A DNA stretch of 36,437 nt from Microscillaceae bacterium (GTDB taxonomy: Bacteria > Bacteroidota > Bacteroidia > Cytophagales > Microscillaceae): the NCBI GenBank assembly GCA_011390205.1, contig JAABSX010000043.1, positions 1 to 36,437 of the forward strand. The letters run 5' to 3'. Below are positions 23,640 to 33,970 of the stretch, piece after piece (within the stretch, counting starts at the first letter, position 1; each line of letters begins with the position of its first letter). The notes under the pieces were generated by a model. That model did not search any database and was not told where the DNA came from. It saw only the letters and a program-made list of their open reading frames with translations. The position numbers and the translations under genes were made by a program.

Positions 23640-25952
23640 ATGACAAGCGAACACCTACCAAACCCCCAACAAAGCCCCGATACAGCTACTCAAAAAATAT
23701 CTGCCAACAGTGAAAATCAAGGTTTCAAACTTGCCCAAGAGCATTTTGTCCAAATCTTAGAGGGCTGTGCCGATGCCGTAGTAGTGAGTGATAGCAAAGG
23801 AGACATTCTGTTTTTTAACCAGATGGCAGAGCGGCAGTTTCAATACCACCGAAGCGAAATGTTAGGTAAAAATGTAAGATTACTCATGCCTCAGATGCAC
23901 GCCGTGCAGCATGATACCTATATGAACAACTATATAACCACACGCCAAGCCAAAGTAATCGGAATCGGGCGTGAGTTAGATGCCCTTCGCAAAGACGGCT
24001 CTAAATTTCCTATCTTGCTGACTATCAGTGAGTCAAAGCTGGATGGGATTACTTTTTTTACAGCTTTCTTAAAAGACAATGCCGAAAAGAAAAGATTAGA
24101 GGAGCAAATACGCAAACAGCTAGAAGAAGTACAGGCAAGTGAAGAAGAACTCCGACAAAACATGGAGGAGCTGCAAACTACCCAAGAAAAACAAGAAAGA
24201 CTGACACAAGAGCTGCGTGAATCAGAGTCGGAAGTGCAAGCACAAATGAGGGCAATCAATACAGCATATTCCTTTGTTACTTTTAGCCCTGATGGCTTTA
24301 TCTTAGACTGCAATGATGTTTTCCTAGAAACCATGGGCTACCACTCCTTAGAAGACGTCAGAGGCAAACACCACAGTGTTTTTGTAGAAAGTAACTATGC
24401 TGTATCCATTGAATACAAACAATTCTGGGCAGACCTACGGAATGGTAAAAGCCTCCCCGCAATCTATCGCAGAATAGATAAAAATGGAGAAGATATATGG
24501 CTAGATGCAGTCTATGCACCTGTATTTAATGAAAATAACCAAGTGTATAAAGTCATCAAACTAGCAAAGGATGTTACAGATTTTACTGTCGCACTCAAAG
24601 CTTCAGGAGCATTTTTAGAAGAAATCCGAAAAGGCAACTTTGAGGTAGAACTAAACCTAGGCCGCCGAAAAATATCTGATGACCTCTCTTCTATGGTTAA
24701 AAACAACCTCGAGCTCAGAGATACACTCAAAGATATTTTACAAGACGTAAACCGAGTCGTAAACATTGCAGGGCAAGAGGGAATATTGGCGGAAAGACTT
24801 AAAACCAGCCACCAAATGGGGGCATGGCGTGAACTCACAGAATCCATTAACCAGCTCCTAGACAACCTTTATACACCACTGATAGAGATTAACAGGCTCA
24901 TTACCAACTTATCTATGGGCAATATCACCCAAAAATTTGAACTTGATGCACGAGGGGATATCGGAGATATGGCGAATGCACTCAACATCGCTTTCAAAAA
25001 CCTCAACATGCTTTTGCTTACCATAGAAGACAGTGCACTCTCTGTCTCAGGAGCCAGCAGCCAAATGAAAAATAAATCGCTTGCTATGCAGCAAACCACC
25101 AAAGAGGCTTCCGTAGCCATCCAAGAAATGGCAGACGGCGCCCAAGAGCAAGCAAACCGAACTGATGAGGCTTCCAGACTTGTAGAAGAAACCCTCAAAT
25201 CAGCAGGAGAAGTCAGCCAAAAAGCTGAAATTATCAACAGAGCCGCCGAAAAAGGACAAATTAACTGCCAAAGCGGACTCTCTACCGTCAGTACACTGGT
25301 TCAAAATATGAGTAAACTTTCTGAATCTGCCCAGATTACAGCACATGCCATTGAGATACTCACTGACCGCTCCGATGAAATCTCAAGAACCCTCAATGTC
25401 ATCACAGACATAGCCTTTCAGACAAAGCTACTCTCTGTCAATGCCACCATAGAGGCAGCCCGAGCAGGTGAAGCAGGCAGAGGCTTTCAAGTAGTGGCAG
25501 ATGAAATCGGAAAACTTGCCGAAAGCTCTCGTACCTCTGCTACGGAGATAGACAAGGTCATCAAAGATGTTCAGAAAGATATTCAGAAAACAAACCAAGC
25601 CATCGAGCAAATGAAAAACGGAGTCAATGAAGGGCATCAAGCCACTCAAAAAGTCTCTGAAGTATTTTCTGAAATAGACATCTCTAGCCAAGAAACACTC
25701 TCCCTATCACAAGCCATCCTGAGCTCTTCCCAAAAACAAAAAGAGTCTATAGATGCCGTAGTCAAAAATATAGAAAAAATAGTCGTCGTCTCTGAGCAAA
25801 CAGCCAGCGGCACTCAAGAAGTAGCCAACTCTTCCTTAGAGATGGACAAGGCAATGTCAGAAGTAGCAGGCACCAGTGAAGAGCTTACCCAAATATCTGA
25901 AAATCTTAAATCACAAGTGGGTAAATTCAAACTTAACAGAGATGAGATATAG
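23640..25952 (+). CDS. Soluble methyl-accepting chemotaxis protein with two PAS domains, the first FixL-like
   Basis: 770 residues, no membrane segment, so a cytoplasmic receptor. PAS1 (about 33-148) contains [12 protein letters not shown] and VIGIGREL followed by LRKDGSKFP. This closely resembles FixL, with H91 at the place of the heme-ligand histidine and R111 at the place of the FG-loop arginine; two FixL propionate contacts are not kept. A coiled coil (148-205) leads to PAS2 (205-315, with [19 protein letters not shown]). A HAMP-like helical segment follows (about 320-460). The MCP signalling domain (about 465-765) has its tip at [24 protein letters not shown] split across 593-616, the site that binds CheA and CheW. 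No C-terminal CheR-tethering pentapeptide is present. It is the first gene of the che operon and probably its dedicated receptor. Confidence 0.93.
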
Positions 25953-25984: not shown

Positions 25985-26458
25985 ATGAATACAGAACAAC
26001 AGAATCATACAGAGATACGGGTCATCACATTTTTATTAGGCACACAGACGTATGCCCTGCCCATAGATGCCATCAAGGAGGTAATCCCTACGCCTGCACT
26101 TACACCCATCCCCCTAGCACCCTCTCACATGCTAGGGCTTGCCAATATCAGAGGGGATGTCTATGCCATCGTAGATTTGGCAGATAAATTTAAACTGAAA
26201 AACAATACTGACGAAACCTCAGGAAAATCTTTTACCCTTGTACTGAACCAAAAGCAAAGCAAAGTAGGGCTTCAGATTGATGCCTTGCCTAGCACACTGA
26301 GTGTCAAGACAAGTCAAATAGACCGACAGGCGAACATCGGGTTTGCAGAGTCAGAGGTGAATCAATACATCTATGCCATCGTGAAGCTGCCCGATAAATT
26401 ACTTATCTTGCTCAATGAGGAGCTGCTGTTTCAGCAAGACCTAAACCCTAAAAACTAG
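25985..26458 (+). CDS. cheW: Chemotaxis coupling protein CheW
   Basis: 157 residues, normal size. The CheW fold is recognisable from ITFLLGTQTYALPIDAIKEV near the start, LGLANIRGDVYAIVDLADKF at about 54-73 (the conserved N-x-R-G block) and a C-terminal KLLILLNEELLF. It links the receptor tip to CheA's CheW-like domain. It lies 32 bases behind the receptor and 43 before cheY, in one operon. Confidence 0.93.
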   Translation: MNTEQQNHTEIRVITFLLGTQTYALPIDAIKEVIPTPALTPIPLAPSHMLGLANIRGDVYAIVDLADKFKLKNNTDETSGKSFTLVLNQKQSKVGLQIDALPSTLSVKTSQIDRQANIGFAESEVNQYIYAIVKLPDKLLILLNEELLFQQDLNPKN

Positions 26459-26501: not shown

Positions 26502-26870
26502 ATGAGCAAAAAAAGAATCCTTATCGTAGATGACTCACTATACATGCGCACCATCATCAAAGATACCCTTACCGAAAATGGATATGAAGTCATAGGGCAA
26601 GCTGCCAATGGTGAAACTGCTATTGACATGGCACTAGACCTAGAGCCCGACCTCATCACCTTAGATAATATCTTGCCTGATATGCTGGGCTTAGACATCC
26701 TGAAAACACTCCGTGATGAATCCCTTACATCCAAAATACTCATCATCAGTGCCGTAGGGCAGCAGTCGGTAGTCCAAGAGGGCTTAAAACTCGGTGCAGA
26801 AGATTATATCGTCAAACCATTTACCTCAGAGCAGCTGCTCGATGCGGTCAAAAGAGCCTTTATGATTTGA
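26502..26870 (+). CDS. cheY: Chemotaxis response regulator CheY
   Basis: 122 residues, a lone receiver domain. D10-D11 form the metal pocket (ILIVDDSLYMR), D55 in ITLDNILPD is the phospho-acceptor, S83 replaces the usual Thr and K105 is in VKPF. LDNILPDMLGLD deviates slightly from the common LDxxMPxMxG. It should carry the signal from CheA to an unknown output. Its stop codon overlaps the TTG start of cheB, implying translational coupling. Confidence 0.92.
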   Translation: MSKKRILIVDDSLYMRTIIKDTLTENGYEVIGQAANGETAIDMALDLEPDLITLDNILPDMLGLDILKTLRDESLTSKILIISAVGQQSVVQEGLKLGAEDYIVKPFTSEQLLDAVKRAFMI

Positions 26871-27925
26871 AAAAAGAAACAATACAAATATTGATTGCGG
26901 ATGACTCTGGATTTATGAGGCTGATGGTAAAACAAATGCTTCAAGAAAATGAGGAGATTCAGGTCATAGACACAGCCGCCAATGGAAAAGAGGCTTTTGA
27001 GAAAACACAAGCCCTCCGCCCTGATGTACTCGTGCTTGATATGCTCATGGCTGATTATGATGGCTTGTATGCCATCCAAAACATCATGCAGCATTGCCCT
27101 ACACCCATCATACTGCTGACCTCCCTAGACACAAAGCAGTCTAATCAGGTATTTGAAGCACTGCAAATGGGTGCAATAGATTTTGTGAACAAACCCTCTG
27201 GAGCTTTTAGTTCTAAAATCAGAAATGTACAAAGTGAATTGCTCGAAAAAATCTATCAGGCTAAAGGTGTGGATGTAACCAAAATCAAAATCAAAAACAT
27301 CCATACACTACAAAAAAGCAATCACTTACCACATTCTTTTGGGCAAAATCTTGCGTATCAAGTAATACTCGTGGGAGGCTCTACGGGTGCACCCTCAGGG
27401 GTCGAGTATATTGTCAATAATTTGCCTGCCAACTTACCCATACCTGTAATAGTGGCACAGCATATGCCTCCACAGTTTATTAGCTCTTTTGCACAGAGGC
27501 TGTCCAAAAAATGCCCCATGCCCATCACCACGAGTCAGGAGCATAAAGCACTCAAAGCAGGACACATTTATCTGCTAGACTCAGAAAGTAACTGGGTACT
27601 GAGCAGGGTGGCTTCTGATGAAGTAGTGTTTCAGAAGACAACACAGCAGTTTAAAGCTTATAATTTTCCTTCAATAGATGCATTATTTAGCTCGGCAGCA
27701 GCCATTTACCAACAAAAAACACTGGGGGTCATCCTGAGCGGAATGGGCAAAGATGGCACTTTAGGAATGGGCAAAATACACCAAGCTCAAGGCATGACCC
27801 TTGCACAAGACCAAGCAAGCTCCATTATATTTGGAATGCCTCGTGCAGCAGAGGAGGAGGGATTTGTGCAGCATCTACTCCCCATCAAGGAGATTCCTAT
27901 GTTTATGATGAGCTGCTTGGCTTAG
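26867..27925 (+). CDS. cheB: Chemotaxis protein-glutamate methylesterase CheB
   Basis: 352 residues. The receiver domain (about 5-122) has D12-D13 and phospho-acceptor D58 in LVLDMLMADYDG. After a linker, the methylesterase domain (about 160-352) has S172 in GGSTGAPSG, H199 in AQHMP and D296 in SGMGKDGTLG, the full catalytic triad. It removes methyl groups from receptors when phosphorylated. The only start that keeps the receiver intact is TTG 26867, which shares bases with the cheY stop (TTGA); the next in-frame ATG is residue 17, inside the receiver. Confidence 0.92.
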   Translation: MKKETIQILIADDSGFMRLMVKQMLQENEEIQVIDTAANGKEAFEKTQALRPDVLVLDMLMADYDGLYAIQNIMQHCPTPIILLTSLDTKQSNQVFEALQMGAIDFVNKPSGAFSSKIRNVQSELLEKIYQAKGVDVTKIKIKNIHTLQKSNHLPHSFGQNLAYQVILVGGSTGAPSGVEYIVNNLPANLPIPVIVAQHMPPQFISSFAQRLSKKCPMPITTSQEHKALKAGHIYLLDSESNWVLSRVASDEVVFQKTTQQFKAYNFPSIDALFSSAAAIYQQKTLGVILSGMGKDGTLGMGKIHQAQGMTLAQDQASSIIFGMPRAAEEEGFVQHLLPIKEIPMFMMSCLA

Positions 27926-27976: not shown

Positions 27977-29725
27977 ATGTGTGATTTTCAGATGGAACAA
28001 GAAGCGCTTTTAGACTTATTTTTACAAGAAGCCCAAGCCCAACAAGGGGAGATAGAACAACTCCTGACTGAGCTAGAGCAAGACCCACAACAACATGCCC
28101 CACTAGAGGCTATATTTAGATACATGCATACCATTAAGGCAAATGCTTTTGCTCTTGACCTAAAGCCCATTGGTGAGCTGACACACTTGCTCGAGGATAT
28201 CTTTAATGAAATCCGAAAAAATGCCATCGTCTTAGATGCCTCATGGTTTAGTGAGCTGCTAAGCGCCAATGATAAGCTGGGGGAGCTGCTCAATGCCGTG
28301 CGAACACAAGAAAAAATAAATTACAAAGGGTTGCTTACCAAAATCAAAGTAAAATACAACAAAGCCCAACAACAACACCCTATACTATCAAGCCCGAAAA
28401 ATACCGAAGAAGCTAAGCCCAAAGAGCAAGAAAGAACTAAAGATGATACAGCCACCTCTCAAAAAACAGAGGCACCTGCCAGAGAAAGCCTGCAAACTAC
28501 GGAAGACATCGAAAACGCAGCACCTACAAACAATATCCAGTTTCATGACACCGTCCAGATTCCAGTACAGAAGCTAGATGCCCTGCTCAATCTTGCAGGA
28601 GAAATAGGCATTGAAAGAGATAGGATTCTGACCATCGCACCCCAAAAAGAACGATTAGACAAAAAAGACTTTCACCAACTCCACCGCCTCACCAGTGAGC
28701 TGCAGCATTCTGTTATCCAAGCAAGGCTGGTCAAAGTAGGGATTCTCTTCCAAAAATTTCACAGGGTAGTCCGTGAAGTAGCACTTGCCGAAAACAAAAA
28801 GGTGAAACTTATCTTAGAAGGCACAGACATAGAAATAGACCGCAATATCTTGCAGGTCATCAGTGATTCTATGGTGCACCTCGTCCGAAATGCAGTGAGC
28901 CATGGCCTTGAAGATGCCCCCGAACGAAGTGCCAAAGGAAAACGCCCCGAGGGCATCATCACACTCAGTGCTTATAATGAAAAAGAGAAGGTCATCATAG
29001 CTGTAAAAGACGATGGAAGAGGAATCAATGAAGCCAAGATAAGAGAAAAACTCATAGACAGAAAATGGTTTAGCCAGACCGAAGTAAGCAATATGCCCCG
29101 CCACGAGATTTTTCAGCAACTCTTTGAGCCAGGGTTCTCCAGTGCTGATACCATCACCGAAATCTCGGGCAGAGGGGTAGGGCTTGATGTGGTCAAAAAC
29201 GCCGTAGATGTTGTGGGAGGCAAAGTAAGCATCCTGACCGAAGAGGATAAGGGGACTACCTTTCAGATGCACTTGCCTGTGTCTATGATGCTCAAACCCG
29301 TACTTTTCTTTGGCATAGACGCACAAACATATGGCATCCCGCTGATGTATGTAGAGGGTGTATGTGCACTCGCCAAGCAAGAAATATTCACTGTAGGCAC
29401 AGGAGAAATCATCCATTACCAAAATCAAAATATACCACTGCTTGATTTAAAGAAATATTTTGAGCTTGATACAGATGCCCAAGCACTCCCTGATATAGAC
29501 CTGCGAGAAGAAGTGGGGCTCATCATTGCAGACACAAGCCGAAAAGTCTGCCTGAAAATACATCGATTGCTGAATCAAAAAGAAATCATAGAAAAACAGC
29601 TTCCGCCCGTCATCCATGCTATCCCACTATTTAGTGGCGCCACCATTCTGGGTACTGGGCAGGTTTGTCTAATTCTGGATGTCATTAACTTACTCAGAAA
29701 CCATAAAAATAAATCCATCACCTAA
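27977..29725 (+). CDS. cheA: Chemotaxis sensor kinase CheA, short form
   Basis: 582 residues. The Hpt domain (about 6-105) has the phosphorylated H51 in FRYMHTIKANAFAL. A charged, flexible linker (about 106-190, rich in K, E, T) follows where a P2 CheY-binding domain often lies; no P2 fold is seen. Then come the dimerisation helices (about 193-265), the ATPase with N box HLVRNAVSHGLE, G1 DDGRGIN, F box FEPGFSS and G2 GRGVGLDVVK, and the C-terminal CheW-like domain (about 436-575). ATG 27977 or the in-frame ATG 15 bases later are both possible. Lack of P2 makes phosphotransfer to CheY and CheB less selective than in E. coli. Confidence 0.93.
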   Translation: MCDFQMEQEALLDLFLQEAQAQQGEIEQLLTELEQDPQQHAPLEAIFRYMHTIKANAFALDLKPIGELTHLLEDIFNEIRKNAIVLDASWFSELLSANDKLGELLNAVRTQEKINYKGLLTKIKVKYNKAQQQHPILSSPKNTEEAKPKEQERTKDDTATSQKTEAPARESLQTTEDIENAAPTNNIQFHDTVQIPVQKLDALLNLAGEIGIERDRILTIAPQKERLDKKDFHQLHRLTSELQHSVIQARLVKVGILFQKFHRVVREVALAENKKVKLILEGTDIEIDRNILQVISDSMVHLVRNAVSHGLEDAPERSAKGKRPEGIITLSAYNEKEKVIIAVKDDGRGINEAKIREKLIDRKWFSQTEVSNMPRHEIFQQLFEPGFSSADTITEISGRGVGLDVVKNAVDVVGGKVSILTEEDKGTTFQMHLPVSMMLKPVLFFGIDAQTYGIPLMYVEGVCALAKQEIFTVGTGEIIHYQNQNIPLLDLKKYFELDTDAQALPDIDLREEVGLIIADTSRKVCLKIHRLLNQKEIIEKQLPPVIHAIPLFSGATILGTGQVCLILDVINLLRNHKNKSIT

Positions 29726-29770
29726 AGAAATACAAGCGTTTATATTTTTATTCACTTGATAAATACAGAT

Positions 29771-30394
29771 ATGCCCCAAGAAGAAAATCAAAACCCCATT
29801 GTATTCCAAGAGGAGTTATTCAGCCAAGCGACTCAAGCAGCACTAGAAGCCCTCAGTCAGATACTTAACCAAAAGGTAAGCTTAGGCGCTTATGCTTTAG
29901 GAAAAATACATCAGTGGCCTACCCGATGGAGGGAAATCTACATGCAGCCCCAAGAGGGCTTTTGGCTACAGACCAACCTGCAAGGCGAGCTGCTAGGGCA
30001 TAGCTTTTTATGGATAGGCAAAGAAGAAGCCGAACAGCTAGGGAAGCATATTTTTAAGCCTAAGCCCCCAAAAGAAGACCTAAGCAGTGAAAAAAATGAT
30101 GAAAAACACACAGAAGGGGCTTTTGATGAGGATTTACTTCAATCTTTTTTGCTAGAGTTAGACAATATATTGAGTGCTCATTTTATTAAATTTTGGGCAA
30201 ATCAAAATCAATTAAGGGTCTATGGAGATATCCCACATCTCTACAAAGATATTCCAAAAGTACTCCAAGATTCTCTCACAAGCGATGCAAAACTTCCTCA
30301 CCAGTGGTTTTACCTTGAATTTGTTTGTGTATCTTTGAATATAAATCTAGAGTTTACTTGGCTCATTCATACAGAAAGCGATGATTTAGTATGA
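29771..30394 (+). CDS. Divergent CheC-like CheY-phosphatase candidate
   Basis: 207 residues, cytoplasmic, and not an obvious family at first sight. Two half-repeats are visible. In the second, S125-x3-E129-x2-N132-x22-P155 (SFLLELDNILSAHF) matches the CheC signature (D/S)-x3-E-x2-N-x22-P exactly. In the first, E15-L-F-S18 sits where E-x2-N would be, followed by ALEALSQILNQKV, like the ALSxLLxxxV of CheC; the asparagine is missing. The segment GELLGHSFLWIGKEEAEQL between them resembles the CheC beta strand and helix. CheC, CheX and FliY proteins remove phosphate from CheY-P, and the gene lies between cheA and a sensor in the che operon. The frame extends to TTG 29756; ATG 29771 is preferred. 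No cheD is present in the window. Confidence 0.65.
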   Translation: MPQEENQNPIVFQEELFSQATQAALEALSQILNQKVSLGAYALGKIHQWPTRWREIYMQPQEGFWLQTNLQGELLGHSFLWIGKEEAEQLGKHIFKPKPPKEDLSSEKNDEKHTEGAFDEDLLQSFLLELDNILSAHFIKFWANQNQLRVYGDIPHLYKDIPKVLQDSLTSDAKLPHQWFYLEFVCVSLNINLEFTWLIHTESDDLV

Positions 30395-30413: not shown

Positions 30414-33146
30414 ATGAGAAATATTTTTACATCCATATATTTTACTTTACTTGTATGGTTTCTGTTATTTATGCTGGGGGTTTACCTCTTTGAGGATGTA
30501 TTGAATACTCCCCAAAAACTTCTATACACAGCACTTTTAGGGCTGGGTGTATGCTTTACCCTCTTTTATTTTAACCAAAAAAATATATCCCTTCCAAAGG
30601 CTTGGCTAGAAATTAGAATCAAAGAATTGTACACAGGCATCCCCTCCAAAAAGGCAAGATTTCAACTACCTCAGCACTATCAGTCTATCCAGACACAATT
30701 TGAAAAGCTAGAAGATGCCATCAATACCAGCAACGAATCACTCAAAAAAATGGCTCGAGGAGAGGAGATGATTCACGAAATTTCGCACGCATCCAAAGTA
30801 GCCTTGCACCAGCATATCATCGCACTGCAGCAAAGCCTTAATGAGCAAAATAAAGCAAGCTACCAGACTCAATGGTACAGACAAGGCTACGCTCTACTCA
30901 GTGATGTGCTTAGGCAATCTACCACACAAAGCCCCCAAGCCCTTGCCCAAGATTTTTTAGAGACACTTGCCAAATATTTTCAAATACGACAAGCTGCCAT
31001 CTACTGGCTAGAAGAAACAGAAAATGACAAACAGATACTAGCCCTCGCAGCAGCCCATGCATACCCCATAGAAAAACTTGAAAGAAAATACTTTGAGACA
31101 CAAGAAGGACTTATTGGGGCTTGCTTCACCAAAAAAAAAATCATCATCCTCGAACAAATTCCAGAAAACTATGCCACACTACACACTGCAATAGGCAAAA
31201 TAAATGCAAATGCACTCATTATTCACCCCATCCAAAAAGAGGGGCAAATCATAGGGGTCTTAGAGCTGATAGCCAACCAAACCCTTCCTAAATACCAACT
31301 AGAGCTCCTAGAAGTTATGTGTGATAACTACGCCATCACACTCCAATCTCAGCAGATGTATATCCATACCGAACAGCTTCTGAGAGAATCTCAACACGCC
31401 AATAAACAGCTTCAACTGAGGGAGGCACAGATGTCTAAAAATGCAGCACAGCTAGAGCAAATGCAGTCTATGTTGAGTGAAAGAATACAAACCATCGAAG
31501 AAGAAACTAACCTGCTCCAGAATATCATAGAAGCAATAGATAAAACCAATGCTACCATTGAGTTTGATATGGAGGGAAATATCTTAGAAGTCAATAAAAT
31601 GTACCTTAGTGTAGTGGGTTATAAACACGAAGAACTTGTAGGAAAAAATGAAATGATACTAGTGCCCAAAGATGACATCACCTCTGGCAGGTATGATATG
31701 ATTTGGGATAGTCTAAAGCAAGGTGCTTACCTATCAGGTGAATACCGTAGAATCACTCAAGCAGGCAAAGAAGTATGGCTCGAAAGTACGTATAACCCTA
31801 TATTTGATACTGATGGTGTGCCTTTTAAAGTGATACAACTTGCCCAATTTACCACAGAAGACAAAGAGCGTAGTTTTGAGCAAAATGCCAAACTCAATGC
31901 CTTAGGGATGGCGCTTCCTATCATAGAGCTCAATGAAGAATCTCAAATTGTGCGAATAAATGCCAAATTTACAGAAACATTGGGTTATGAAAGAAAAGAT
32001 ATCCGAAAAAAAGTAATGCAGGATATTATCTTAGACGAAAAAACGCAAGACGGACAGTCTGTCCTTCAGAATATATGGACTCAAGTCTGGAAAGGCAATA
32101 CACAATCTCATATCATGAGTCTCAAAAGCAAGACAGATGCTATACAGCAATATATCATTTACTTTAACCCTATTATGAAGTTAGATGGCAAAATAGACAA
32201 AATACTCACCATACTGATAGATGTAACAGAGATAGAAGGAATGCGCCAAAAACTGATTCACAACGAAAAAGAACTCTCACAGACCATCCAAGAGCTACAC
32301 AATACTACAGCCAACTTACACCAGCAAAATCAGGAGTTTGATACTGTAGTCAGTATGTTTCACCAAGCCTGCAAAGCCTTCGAGCTTGATAGTAGTTTTA
32401 AAATCTTGACCATCAATGAAAATTTACAAAATAAACTCAGCCTAGAGCCCCAAACTTCTCCTACATACTTTGAGCAGCTCATAGATACACACTTTCCTAC
32501 TCAATACTGGGAGGAGTGCAAAGAAAAACTGCAATCTAATAGTTTTCATAGCTTTACGATGAAGTACCGCTCACCTGCCAGCGGAAAATCATTCTGGGGC
32601 AATACCAGCATAGCAGTCTATCGGGATTTTGAAAAAAACCAAACAAGGTATCTCGGGATTATCATAGATGTAACCGATGATGTAGTACAGGCAGTCTATC
32701 TCAGGGGCGAAATCGTGGAGCTTAAAATGAAAAATGCCATCCTTAAATATAGAAATACCAATAAAAATATCGTCATTAGTGAAGATAAACTCATCAAGAA
32801 TGCACTAGAAGTAGATAAAAGCACACTTCACGAGATGATTAGCCACGAACTTTTCCCTAGCATCAGGGCAGATAAGAATGAGAATATCCTAGTGGCCAAC
32901 TCACTGGTCTATGACCTACTTGGCTTCCCCAAAGAGACACTCACAGGCACAAAGCTAAGCCACATCCTTAGTTTTAAAAATCAAGAAGAGCAGCAAAGCT
33001 ACCAAGAATGGATACTGCGAGGAGAAAAAGAAGAAAAACGCTCAGGTATTCAGATTATCAATAATAAAAAAGGAAATGGGCTCTACGCCAATACTGCATT
33101 CATCCATGATGAAAATGGCTTTTGGCTCTTATTTATCATTCTCTAA
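30414..33146 (+). CDS. Membrane GAF and multi-PAS sensor protein without output domain
   Basis: 910 residues. Two N-terminal membrane helices (about 7-27 and 36-53) form a hairpin with no large periplasmic loop. Then come coiled coil (90-150), a GAF domain (about 160-315), coiled coil (315-370), PAS (370-485, with YRRITQAGKEVWLESTYNP like PAS2 of the receptor), PAS (490-610), coiled coil (605-645), a PAS-like region (645-757) and a final PAS-like region (805-910) ending in WLLFIIL. No kinase, GGDEF, MCP or receiver domain follows. It starts 19 bases after the CheC-like gene and abuts cheR, so it is part of the operon and may relay membrane signals to the Che proteins. An A10 run at 31131-31140 could slip. 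Confidence 0.85.
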   Translation: MRNIFTSIYFTLLVWFLLFMLGVYLFEDVLNTPQKLLYTALLGLGVCFTLFYFNQKNISLPKAWLEIRIKELYTGIPSKKARFQLPQHYQSIQTQFEKLEDAINTSNESLKKMARGEEMIHEISHASKVALHQHIIALQQSLNEQNKASYQTQWYRQGYALLSDVLRQSTTQSPQALAQDFLETLAKYFQIRQAAIYWLEETENDKQILALAAAHAYPIEKLERKYFETQEGLIGACFTKKKIIILEQIPENYATLHTAIGKINANALIIHPIQKEGQIIGVLELIANQTLPKYQLELLEVMCDNYAITLQSQQMYIHTEQLLRESQHANKQLQLREAQMSKNAAQLEQMQSMLSERIQTIEEETNLLQNIIEAIDKTNATIEFDMEGNILEVNKMYLSVVGYKHEELVGKNEMILVPKDDITSGRYDMIWDSLKQGAYLSGEYRRITQAGKEVWLESTYNPIFDTDGVPFKVIQLAQFTTEDKERSFEQNAKLNALGMALPIIELNEESQIVRINAKFTETLGYERKDIRKKVMQDIILDEKTQDGQSVLQNIWTQVWKGNTQSHIMSLKSKTDAIQQYIIYFNPIMKLDGKIDKILTILIDVTEIEGMRQKLIHNEKELSQTIQELHNTTANLHQQNQEFDTVVSMFHQACKAFELDSSFKILTINENLQNKLSLEPQTSPTYFEQLIDTHFPTQYWEECKEKLQSNSFHSFTMKYRSPASGKSFWGNTSIAVYRDFEKNQTRYLGIIIDVTDDVVQAVYLRGEIVELKMKNAILKYRNTNKNIVISEDKLIKNALEVDKSTLHEMISHELFPSIRADKNENILVANSLVYDLLGFPKETLTGTKLSHILSFKNQEEQQSYQEWILRGEKEEKRSGIQIINNKKGNGLYANTAFIHDENGFWLLFIIL

Positions 33147-33157
33147 ACCCATACCCA

Positions 33158-33970
33158 TTGATTACCCAAGAAGAATTAAAAGGAATTACAGAAGCCATCC
33201 ATAACCGCTATGGGATAGATTTTCGCTCTTACGAAACGGTATCTCTTCAGCGCCGAATCACTCGGCTTATGCACAGACACCGCCTAGAATCTGTCTATCA
33301 CCTCTGGCAAAAAGTGCTTTATGACAAAGATTTCGTGCAAATATTTATCAATGAAGTAACCATTGGATTTACGGAATTATTCAGAAATATTAGCCTCTGG
33401 CAGACCCTCAAGAATGACATCATGGAGCAGTTTCCGAATACCAAACCCCTCAAAATATGGCATGCTGGCTGTGCCACTGGTGAGGAGGTTTATTCTATGC
33501 TTATTTTACTTCAAGAGCTCAGACGGATTGAGACTACTGAGATATTGGCCACAGACATCAATACCGAGTTTATGGCACAAGTAAGGCAGGGTAAGTATGA
33601 TAGTAGCCTCTGGAAAAAATTCAATAAAAGTTACCAGTCTTTTGTTCAATCTTCCCAAAAAGATTTATCACAATATGCCGAGCTGGGCGAAGAGTGGTTT
33701 GTGTTTCATAAAAACCTCCGAAAAAACCTTCAGGTAAGGTTTCATAACCTTACCCAGTTTCCACAGAAAGAGCATTTTCAGCTTATCTTTTGCCGAAATG
33801 TGCTGATTTACTTTGATGAAGCCCTCAAACAGCAAGTGCTCAAGTTGTTGTGTGAAAGTTTGAGGCCAGGAGGCTACCTCATCTTAGGATTTTATGATGC
33901 CCTCCCTACCAATACTGAACTTCCCCTAAAACTGACCAACCCAGGGCTAAAGATTTTTAGCAAAGTCTAA
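33158..33970 (+). CDS. cheR: Chemotaxis protein-glutamate methyltransferase CheR
   Basis: About 270 residues. The N-terminal helical domain has ITEAIHNRYGIDFRSYE and LQRRITRLMHRHRL. The SAM-binding core has IWHAGCATGEEVYSMLILL at about 99-117 and FCRNVLIYFDE near 218. It transfers methyl groups from SAM to receptor glutamates, opposing CheB. No ATG precedes the conserved domain: TTG 33158 starts 12 bases after the previous stop; TTG 33122 would overlap the sensor gene by 25 bases. I use 33158, but both are possible. It ends 12 bases from the convergent mscS-type gene. Confidence 0.9.
   Translation: MITQEELKGITEAIHNRYGIDFRSYETVSLQRRITRLMHRHRLESVYHLWQKVLYDKDFVQIFINEVTIGFTELFRNISLWQTLKNDIMEQFPNTKPLKIWHAGCATGEEVYSMLILLQELRRIETTEILATDINTEFMAQVRQGKYDSSLWKKFNKSYQSFVQSSQKDLSQYAELGEEWFVFHKNLRKNLQVRFHNLTQFPQKEHFQLIFCRNVLIYFDEALKQQVLKLLCESLRPGGYLILGFYDALPTNTELPLKLTNPGLKIFSKV

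Follow-up and report, generated by a model that had tools for sequence, protein, structure and literature searches.

A predicted FixL-class heme PAS and a candidate FAD PAS on the sole chemoreceptor of a Microscillaceae bacterium

The only chemoreceptor found in the genome of a Microscillaceae bacterium (Bacteroidota; Cytophagales) is a soluble protein with two dissimilar PAS domains ahead of its signaling hairpin. The explanation that best accounts for it as a whole, and which we consider probable, is that its first domain (PAS1) is a FixL-class heme PAS that senses O2, that its second (PAS2) likely carries FAD, and that this sole receptor addresses gliding as its most likely output. The gene lies in a 36,437-nucleotide stretch of DNA, hereafter the window, which comprises positions 1 to 36,437 of contig JAABSX010000043.1 (assembly GCA_011390205.1). 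Its open reading frame (23640–25952, forward strand, as are all window features below) encodes 770 residues arranged as PAS1, coiled coil, PAS2, HAMP, and kinase-control hairpin. Pfam recognizes PAS_9 at residues 45–146, PAS folds at about 213–315, HAMP_2 at 393–455 (24816–25004), and MCPsignal at 535–715 (25242–25784), the last scoring 119.5 bits against a cut-off of 34.6, which identifies the protein as an MCP. PAS1, the predicted FixL-class heme domain, spans residues 33–148 (23736–24083) and is preceded by just 32 residues. A helical linker, inferred to be a coiled coil (residues 148–209; 24081–24266), leads to PAS2 (residues 199–318; 24234–24593), a candidate FAD PAS of the Aer/AerC type. 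The original prediction, a FixL-like heme PAS on a soluble chemotaxis receptor, was correct as to reading frame, domain span, and solubility: No 19-residue segment of the receptor attains transmembrane-level hydropathy (highest Kyte–Doolittle mean, 1.13). A search of the receptor for the E. coli-type methylation motif found none. The full-length AlphaFold model has a pLDDT of 73.7 and a pTM of 0.30. A tri-HAMP arrangement resembling that of Aer2 was considered for residues 315–460 and dropped, because Pfam backs a single HAMP_2 at about 393–455 and the model's pLDDT falls below 50 at residues 328–358 and 366–411.

As originally predicted, the receptor gene comes first in a che operon, with the order MCP–CheW–CheY–CheB–CheA–(212 aa, CheC-like)–(910 aa, GAF/PAS)–CheR and intergenic spacings of −25 to 51 bases. 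Downstream of the receptor lie CheW (25985–26458), a CheY-like single receiver (26502–26870), the methylesterase CheB (26867–27925), CheA (27977–29725), which holds the only H-kinase_dim match in the genome, and, closing the operon, the methyltransferase CheR (33122–33970). Between CheA and CheR sit two less conventional proteins. The first, of 212 residues (29756–30394), has no Pfam or NCBIfam match as a single sequence; a profile built from 28 CheC-like sequences, namely the window member and 27 of 44 relatives, matches CheC (1xkr) at 1.2e-18. With Pfam CheC, 17 of these 28, excluding the protein of the window, score at E ≤ 0.5, and E134 and N137 are invariant in all 28. An ExxN motif marks the phosphatase helix of CheC. 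On these sequence grounds, the protein is predicted to be a CheC-like CheY-P phosphatase. Its relatives number 44 in 60 loci read, and they follow CheA in the nine loci in which their position was read. The second (30414–33146), a 910-residue GAF/PAS protein with no recognized output domain, appears by eye to begin with a membrane-spanning segment, and its relatives adjoin CheR in more than 10 che loci.

The assembly is 96.9% complete in 124 contigs, and within it there is one MCP signaling domain (the receptor's being the only PF00015 match) and one CheA dimerization domain. Such economy is widespread: Among 291 genomes of the order, 105 have an MCP match, and by hand count 79 of these have exactly one, three of the 79 being weak matches and many belonging to one family (f13); a one-receptor che system is therefore common in the order. 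No FliG_C was detected in the assembly, so the cell appears to lack flagella; its one T2SSE match falls below the cut-off, leaving no pilus ATPase above it, while the T9SS/gliding protein GldK does score above its own. Because neither a flagellar switch protein nor a pilus ATPase clears its cut-off, the T9SS-linked gliding machinery would be the most likely output. Elsewhere in the same genome, two further FixL-type PAS domains with both His and Arg (contig C36, 55146–55475 and 125132–125524) sit at the extreme C-termini of larger proteins, with nothing behind them.

The most durable competitor to a gliding output, possible if less than likely, is that the che system steers no movement and instead controls a surface polymer, development, or a second messenger, with the receptor as its O2 or redox input. 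The same absence of FliG_C, and of a T2SSE-family ATPase above the cut-off, speaks for it, as does the fact that no link from this CheY to the gliding motor was seen. Set against it are the presence of GldK and the full adaptation set of CheB, CheR, and the CheC-like protein, which suits the temporal sensing of gradients.

Turning to the sensory end of the receptor, PAS1 finds its closest relatives of known structure among heme PAS domains. In a phmmer search of the PDB, Sinorhizobium meliloti FixL comes first (2.6e-26), followed by Bradyrhizobium japonicum FixL (1.5e-22) and, at best 2.1e-13, DosP. The FixL likeness originally predicted for residues 33–148 is thus borne out, well beyond the level of chance, and heme PAS domains are the only matches at E ≤ 0.01, numbering 14 of 14 distinct sequences that represent variants of just four proteins (the two FixLs, DosP, and FG214). 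The full score of 14 follows from counting 10jx (1.3e-5), which the structure library names as the heme-binding PAS of FG214. As a control, PAS2 of the same receptor returned 47 PDB matches at E ≤ 1, with E. coli Aer first and no FixL among them. PAS1 is identical to S. meliloti FixL (1d06) at 48 of 112 positions and to B. japonicum FixL (1dp6) at 45 of 112. A profile of 40 PAS1 relatives (domains scoring above 95 bits, with a minimum length of 106 residues and thinned to at most 88% likeness, picked by similarity and not by their His or Arg) ranks the PDB in the same sense, with FixL at 141 bits, DosP at 111, FG214 at 55, and then blue-light LOV domains at 39. The PAS of Aer2 is absent, as an absence only, from the PDB matches of PAS1 and from the 60 of 82 profile matches listed.

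The predicted fold tells a similar story. The AlphaFold model of PAS1 (pLDDT 80.8, pTM 0.75) retrieves only FixL, DosP, or FG214 in Foldseek rows 1–30 and in VIA rows 1–11 (Z 17.2–19.3, rmsd 1.6–2.2 Å over 105–123 residues), and its overlays on FixL give VIA Z scores of 16.8–19.3. Row 12 is 3lyx, a PAS of unstated ligand whose Z of 17.2 ties with several FixL rows; the fold of PAS1 therefore ranks with the heme PAS domains and is also compatible with other PAS domains. The absence of the Aer2 PAS from the VIA matches listed is not evidence either way. In the full-length model, H91 falls on the helix at residues 85–101 (F-alpha) and R111 on the strand at 107–116 (G-beta), in agreement with an F-alpha proximal His and an O2-bonding Arg as described for FixL in a portion of PMC10765370. 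The model thus does not place H91 outside the ligand pocket, the outcome that would have counted against the original prediction; it sets it on the F-alpha of a FixL-overlaying domain, in a region of low confidence (pLDDT 55–68 around H91–I109; 65 for residues 91–100 and 55 for 101–110) and in a model that holds no heme.

The residues named in the original prediction are where they were said to be: H91, N97, K105, and R111 align with B. japonicum FixL H200, R206, H214, and R220. H91 (codon 23910–23912), the predicted proximal heme ligand, corresponds to H194 of S. meliloti FixL, and R111 (codon 23970–23972), the predicted O2-contacting Arg, to its R214. Both positions are invariant in all 40 rows of the relatives' alignment. 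An F-alpha His, a G-beta Arg, and nearest neighbors in FixL and DosP among PAS domains of known structure place PAS1 in the FixL/DosP class. The receptor as a whole is not a FixL kinase, since it scores 110.4 against a cut-off of 850 for the NCBIfam FixL model and its output is MCPsignal. R206, the heme-propionate Arg of FixL, is N97 here. This position is Asn in 32 of 40 rows (18 of 21 kinases and 9 of 13 chemoreceptors), and the H214 position is Lys in just as many (15 of 21 kinases and 12 of 13 chemoreceptors). As Asn and Lys are the usual residues, N97 and K105 are neither a sign of decay nor evidence against heme. A portion of PMC10765370 describes normal heme spectra for S. meliloti FixL variants at R200, the R206 equivalent, and a weakened O2 inhibition of the kinase for B. 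japonicum FixL R206A, the latter a point against the preferred reading.

Taken alone, the paired His and Arg motif was rejected as proof of heme, being too widespread. PAS1 matches at E ≤ 1e-18 occur in 47 of 296 genomes of the phylum; of 30 phylum loci read, 29 are kinase-like (a label given by a DxGxG-type pattern only), the remaining one being the window, and the motif recurs in multi-PAS proteins. Tests of fold, phylogeny, and a masked profile were therefore added. In the last, the His and Arg columns were blanked in the profile before domains were scored. Of the 36 domains that reach 40 bits, both residues are present in 27 and missing from 8, while 1 has His only and 0 Arg only; below 40 bits, 95 of 96 have neither and 1 has His only. 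We treat this outcome as no more than supporting evidence, because the entire F–G stretch is missing from several of the 8 and near-copies occur among the 27. In sum, sequence and model together make PAS1 very likely to bind heme, and O2 is its likely ligand.

The pocket lining is where the chemoreceptor domains part from FixL-type kinases. Counting FixL residue numbers from those in a portion of PMC10765370, the I215 position is Val in 10 of 13 chemoreceptor domains and Ile in 20 of 21 kinase domains, the M234 position is Ile in 12 of 13 and Met in 15 of 21, and the G251 position is Ala in 13 of 13 and Gly in 21 of 21, respectively; the I218 position is Lys, Ser, Gly, or Thr in 6 of the 13 chemoreceptor domains. 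Such class-specific changes may tune ligand affinity. This remodeling and the variable I218 position would also suit a heme-binding PAS1 whose signal is NO, CO, or the redox state of the heme, that is, a form of gas or redox sensing distinct from aerotaxis. We consider that improbable, given that the O2-bonding Arg is kept in every one of the 40 rows and that the G251 position is likewise Ala (by eye) in DosP, whose role as an O2 sensor is proven.

A 43-row tree adds a further line of evidence for the FixL-class assignment. The main chemoreceptor clade, which has 13 rows of which 11 are chemoreceptor domains (support 95/77, not starred), falls between the FixL branch (27 rows, 100/98), home to both rhizobial FixLs and Bacteroidota kinases, and the DosP branch (100/99), and hence has proven heme PAS domains on both its sides. 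The tree is midpoint-rooted for drawing only, its DosP branch is long (2.23), and its bootstrap had not settled. The DosP branch consists of E. coli DosP and two further chemoreceptor domains (L122, 9820–10155; L123, 4959–5288), which thus group with DosP rather than FixL and possibly reflect a second recruitment of a heme PAS. The starred branches require the chemoreceptor label to change two or more times, so Cytophagales chemoreceptors may have gained a PAS of the FixL/DosP class on two occasions, or the link may have been lost on one. That PAS1 might be a heme-free FixL relative serving dimerization or another small ligand is likewise improbable: The eight wider-family domains lacking both residues, several of them on the same receptors, and the portion of PMC10468136 in which His is absent from 40% of the FixL/DosP cluster (cluster 3), so that this cluster includes members predicted not to bind heme, lend it some color, whereas PAS1 itself has retained the His, the Arg, and the hydrophobic residues of the distal side, and the tree places it between FixL and DosP.

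The second predicted sensory domain, PAS2, resembles a different family. Its first PDB match is E. coli Aer (8.3e-7), and their alignment sets H245 (codon 24372–24374) on Aer H53, W263 (codon 24426–24428) on W70, and an Arg on N85. As described in a portion of PMC9668731, H53 of Aer stacks on the isoalloxazine and W70 on the FAD adenine, and N85 bonds the flavin. This FAD-bonding Asn is thus not kept in PAS2. In the available part of PMC10468136, however, the conserved pair of the AerC cluster is Trp and His, the Asn being assigned to the other two FAD clusters. PAS2 has the F-alpha Trp and the His of this PAS_FAD2/AerC type, as read through alignment to Aer and not to AerC itself. In a survey of proteins of at least 600 residues, 44 of 62 receptors (window included) have at least one PAS2-type domain, and the one nearest the HAMP keeps both His and Trp in 37 of those 44; over all PAS2-type domains, the pair is kept in 187 of 227. 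That PAS2 binds FAD is no more than a fair guess from its sequence; AerC itself is said to hold FAD weakly, according to a passage of PMC13401364. In the same order, seven chemoreceptors of about 2100 residues (L103, L106–L109, L113, and L114) carry 13 tandem Aer/AerC-type PAS domains, the flavin His and Trp being present in 11 of the 13 in each.

The receptor's relatives share its rear end and differ at the front. At E ≤ 1e-45, the receptor has matches in 92 of 291 genomes of the order, its own included, and loci were read in 57 of the 91 others, the 34 left out being 33 of family f13 and a fragment (G158). Cytophagales receptors have the C-terminal chassis in common, whereas their N-terminal PAS arrays range from none detected to as many as 13 domains of the PAS2 type. 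Of 62 receptors, 9 have a FixL-type PAS that keeps both His and Arg (that of the window, L087–L091, L105, L122, and L123), and in six of these (that of the window and L087–L091) it immediately precedes a terminal Aer/AerC-type PAS. Frame changes interrupt a tenth such receptor gene, in genome G003 (L042/L093), with 10 stops in the match. CheA is split there too, which points either to errors in the sequence or to an operon that is decaying as a whole. The operon order of the window recurs at L088 (G105), and at L087 (G008) CheR alone was found beside the receptor within the stretch read. Two large genomes of one family each have a protein with an open frame of 1362 residues (L051 and L052) in which five FixL-type PAS domains, all with the His and the Arg, stand in tandem. 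Beyond chromosomes, 359 plasmid records match PAS1; among the best 60 and 60 evenly spread (overlapping lists), none is named a chemotaxis protein, many of these rows being just “PAS domain S-box protein” or unannotated.

A more elaborate version of the preferred reading, which we offer tentatively, is a two-cofactor receptor in which a heme PAS for O2 and a flavin PAS for redox act in series on the sole receptor and set the reversal of the gliding motor, with the sensory modules swapped or multiplied in relatives.

Compared with characterized systems, the receptor recombines familiar parts. It shares with FixL (1d06 and 1dp6) the proximal His, the O2 Arg, the distal hydrophobic residues, and the fold of its PAS, and differs from it in having an MCP hairpin in place of a histidine kinase, as well as Asn, Lys, and Ala in place of R206, H214, and G251. 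PAS-A of E. coli DosP likewise has the His and Arg, has Ala at the G251 position, and is the first of a tandem PAS pair, whereas its M95 is replaced by I109 here and its output is a phosphodiesterase. Aer2 of Pseudomonas aeruginosa, Vibrio cholerae, Vibrio vulnificus, and Leptospira interrogans is a heme-PAS chemoreceptor, as this receptor is predicted to be; the L. interrogans protein is membrane-bound, to go by the title of a cited paper. However, a portion of PMC10468136 locates the heme His of Aer2 on E-alpha/E-eta and assigns its PAS to a cluster unrelated to that of FixL, and in P. aeruginosa Aer2 the PAS comes after three HAMPs (PMC13401364), in contrast to the HAMP_2 that follows the PAS domains here. 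The match of the NCBIfam model for Vibrio Aer2 covers the HAMP–MCP region (residues 367–686) and scores far under the equivalog cut-off. IcpB of Azorhizobium caulinodans, also cytoplasmic, is an aerotaxis receptor whose heme PAS stands at the N-terminus (PMC13401364); it differs in its simple domain composition. AerC of Azospirillum brasilense is also cytoplasmic with two N-terminal PAS domains, and PAS2 has the Trp and His given for its cluster in the available part of PMC10468136. A passage of PMC13401364 reports FAD in both AerC domains, while the first PAS here is FixL-class.

Heme-PAS chemoreceptors as such are therefore already known (Aer2 and IcpB); a FixL-class and an AerC-class PAS on one chemoreceptor is a new combination. 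In the survey of PMC10468136, as far as its available part goes, FixL/DosP-cluster PAS domains accompany kinases and diguanylate cyclases, and those of the AerC and Aer2 clusters accompany chemoreceptors. The heme-PAS chemoreceptors treated at length in a 2026 review of aerotaxis are of the Aer2 type, and neither FixL nor Bacteroid- nor gliding occurs as a word in its main text (PMC13401364). In the open-licence PMC literature, we found no Cytophagales precedent for such a receptor, and no title on aerotaxis in gliding Bacteroidota or on a receptor that combines heme with FAD. Judged by titles, one paper there, on Chitinophaga pinensis, brings together Cytophagales, chemotaxis, CheA, and gliding. 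The original interpretation stands in its core, the FixL-type heme-PAS assignment having good support from the sequence, the predicted fold, the conserved residues, and the tree. It was incomplete in missing the Aer/AerC-like PAS2, the sole-receptor status, the chassis shared among Cytophagales receptors, and the CheC-like protein, and cytoplasmic heme-PAS aerotaxis receptors had precedents.

In the mechanism we favor, PAS1 would bind heme b, with H91 of F-alpha ligating the iron, R111 of G-beta bonding the bound O2, and V106, I107, L127, and I129 covering the distal heme face. O2 binding would be relayed through the roughly 60-residue helix of the linker to PAS2, which probably holds FAD and may either add a redox reading or serve as a relay. 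From there, the signal would travel by way of the HAMP region and reach the kinase-control tip, changing CheA activity and CheY phosphorylation, with the CheC-like protein, CheB, and CheR providing signal removal and adaptation. The receptor thus probably informs the cell about oxygen, and perhaps about its redox state, in what may amount to aerotaxis by gliding. If this is correct, direct O2 sensing and energy sensing would be merged in one molecule, in a bacterium with a single receptor and, apparently, no flagella. The organism would then offer a clean, one-receptor system in which to ask what che controls in gliding Bacteroidota, and its order would present a natural series of sensor exchanges upon a single output.
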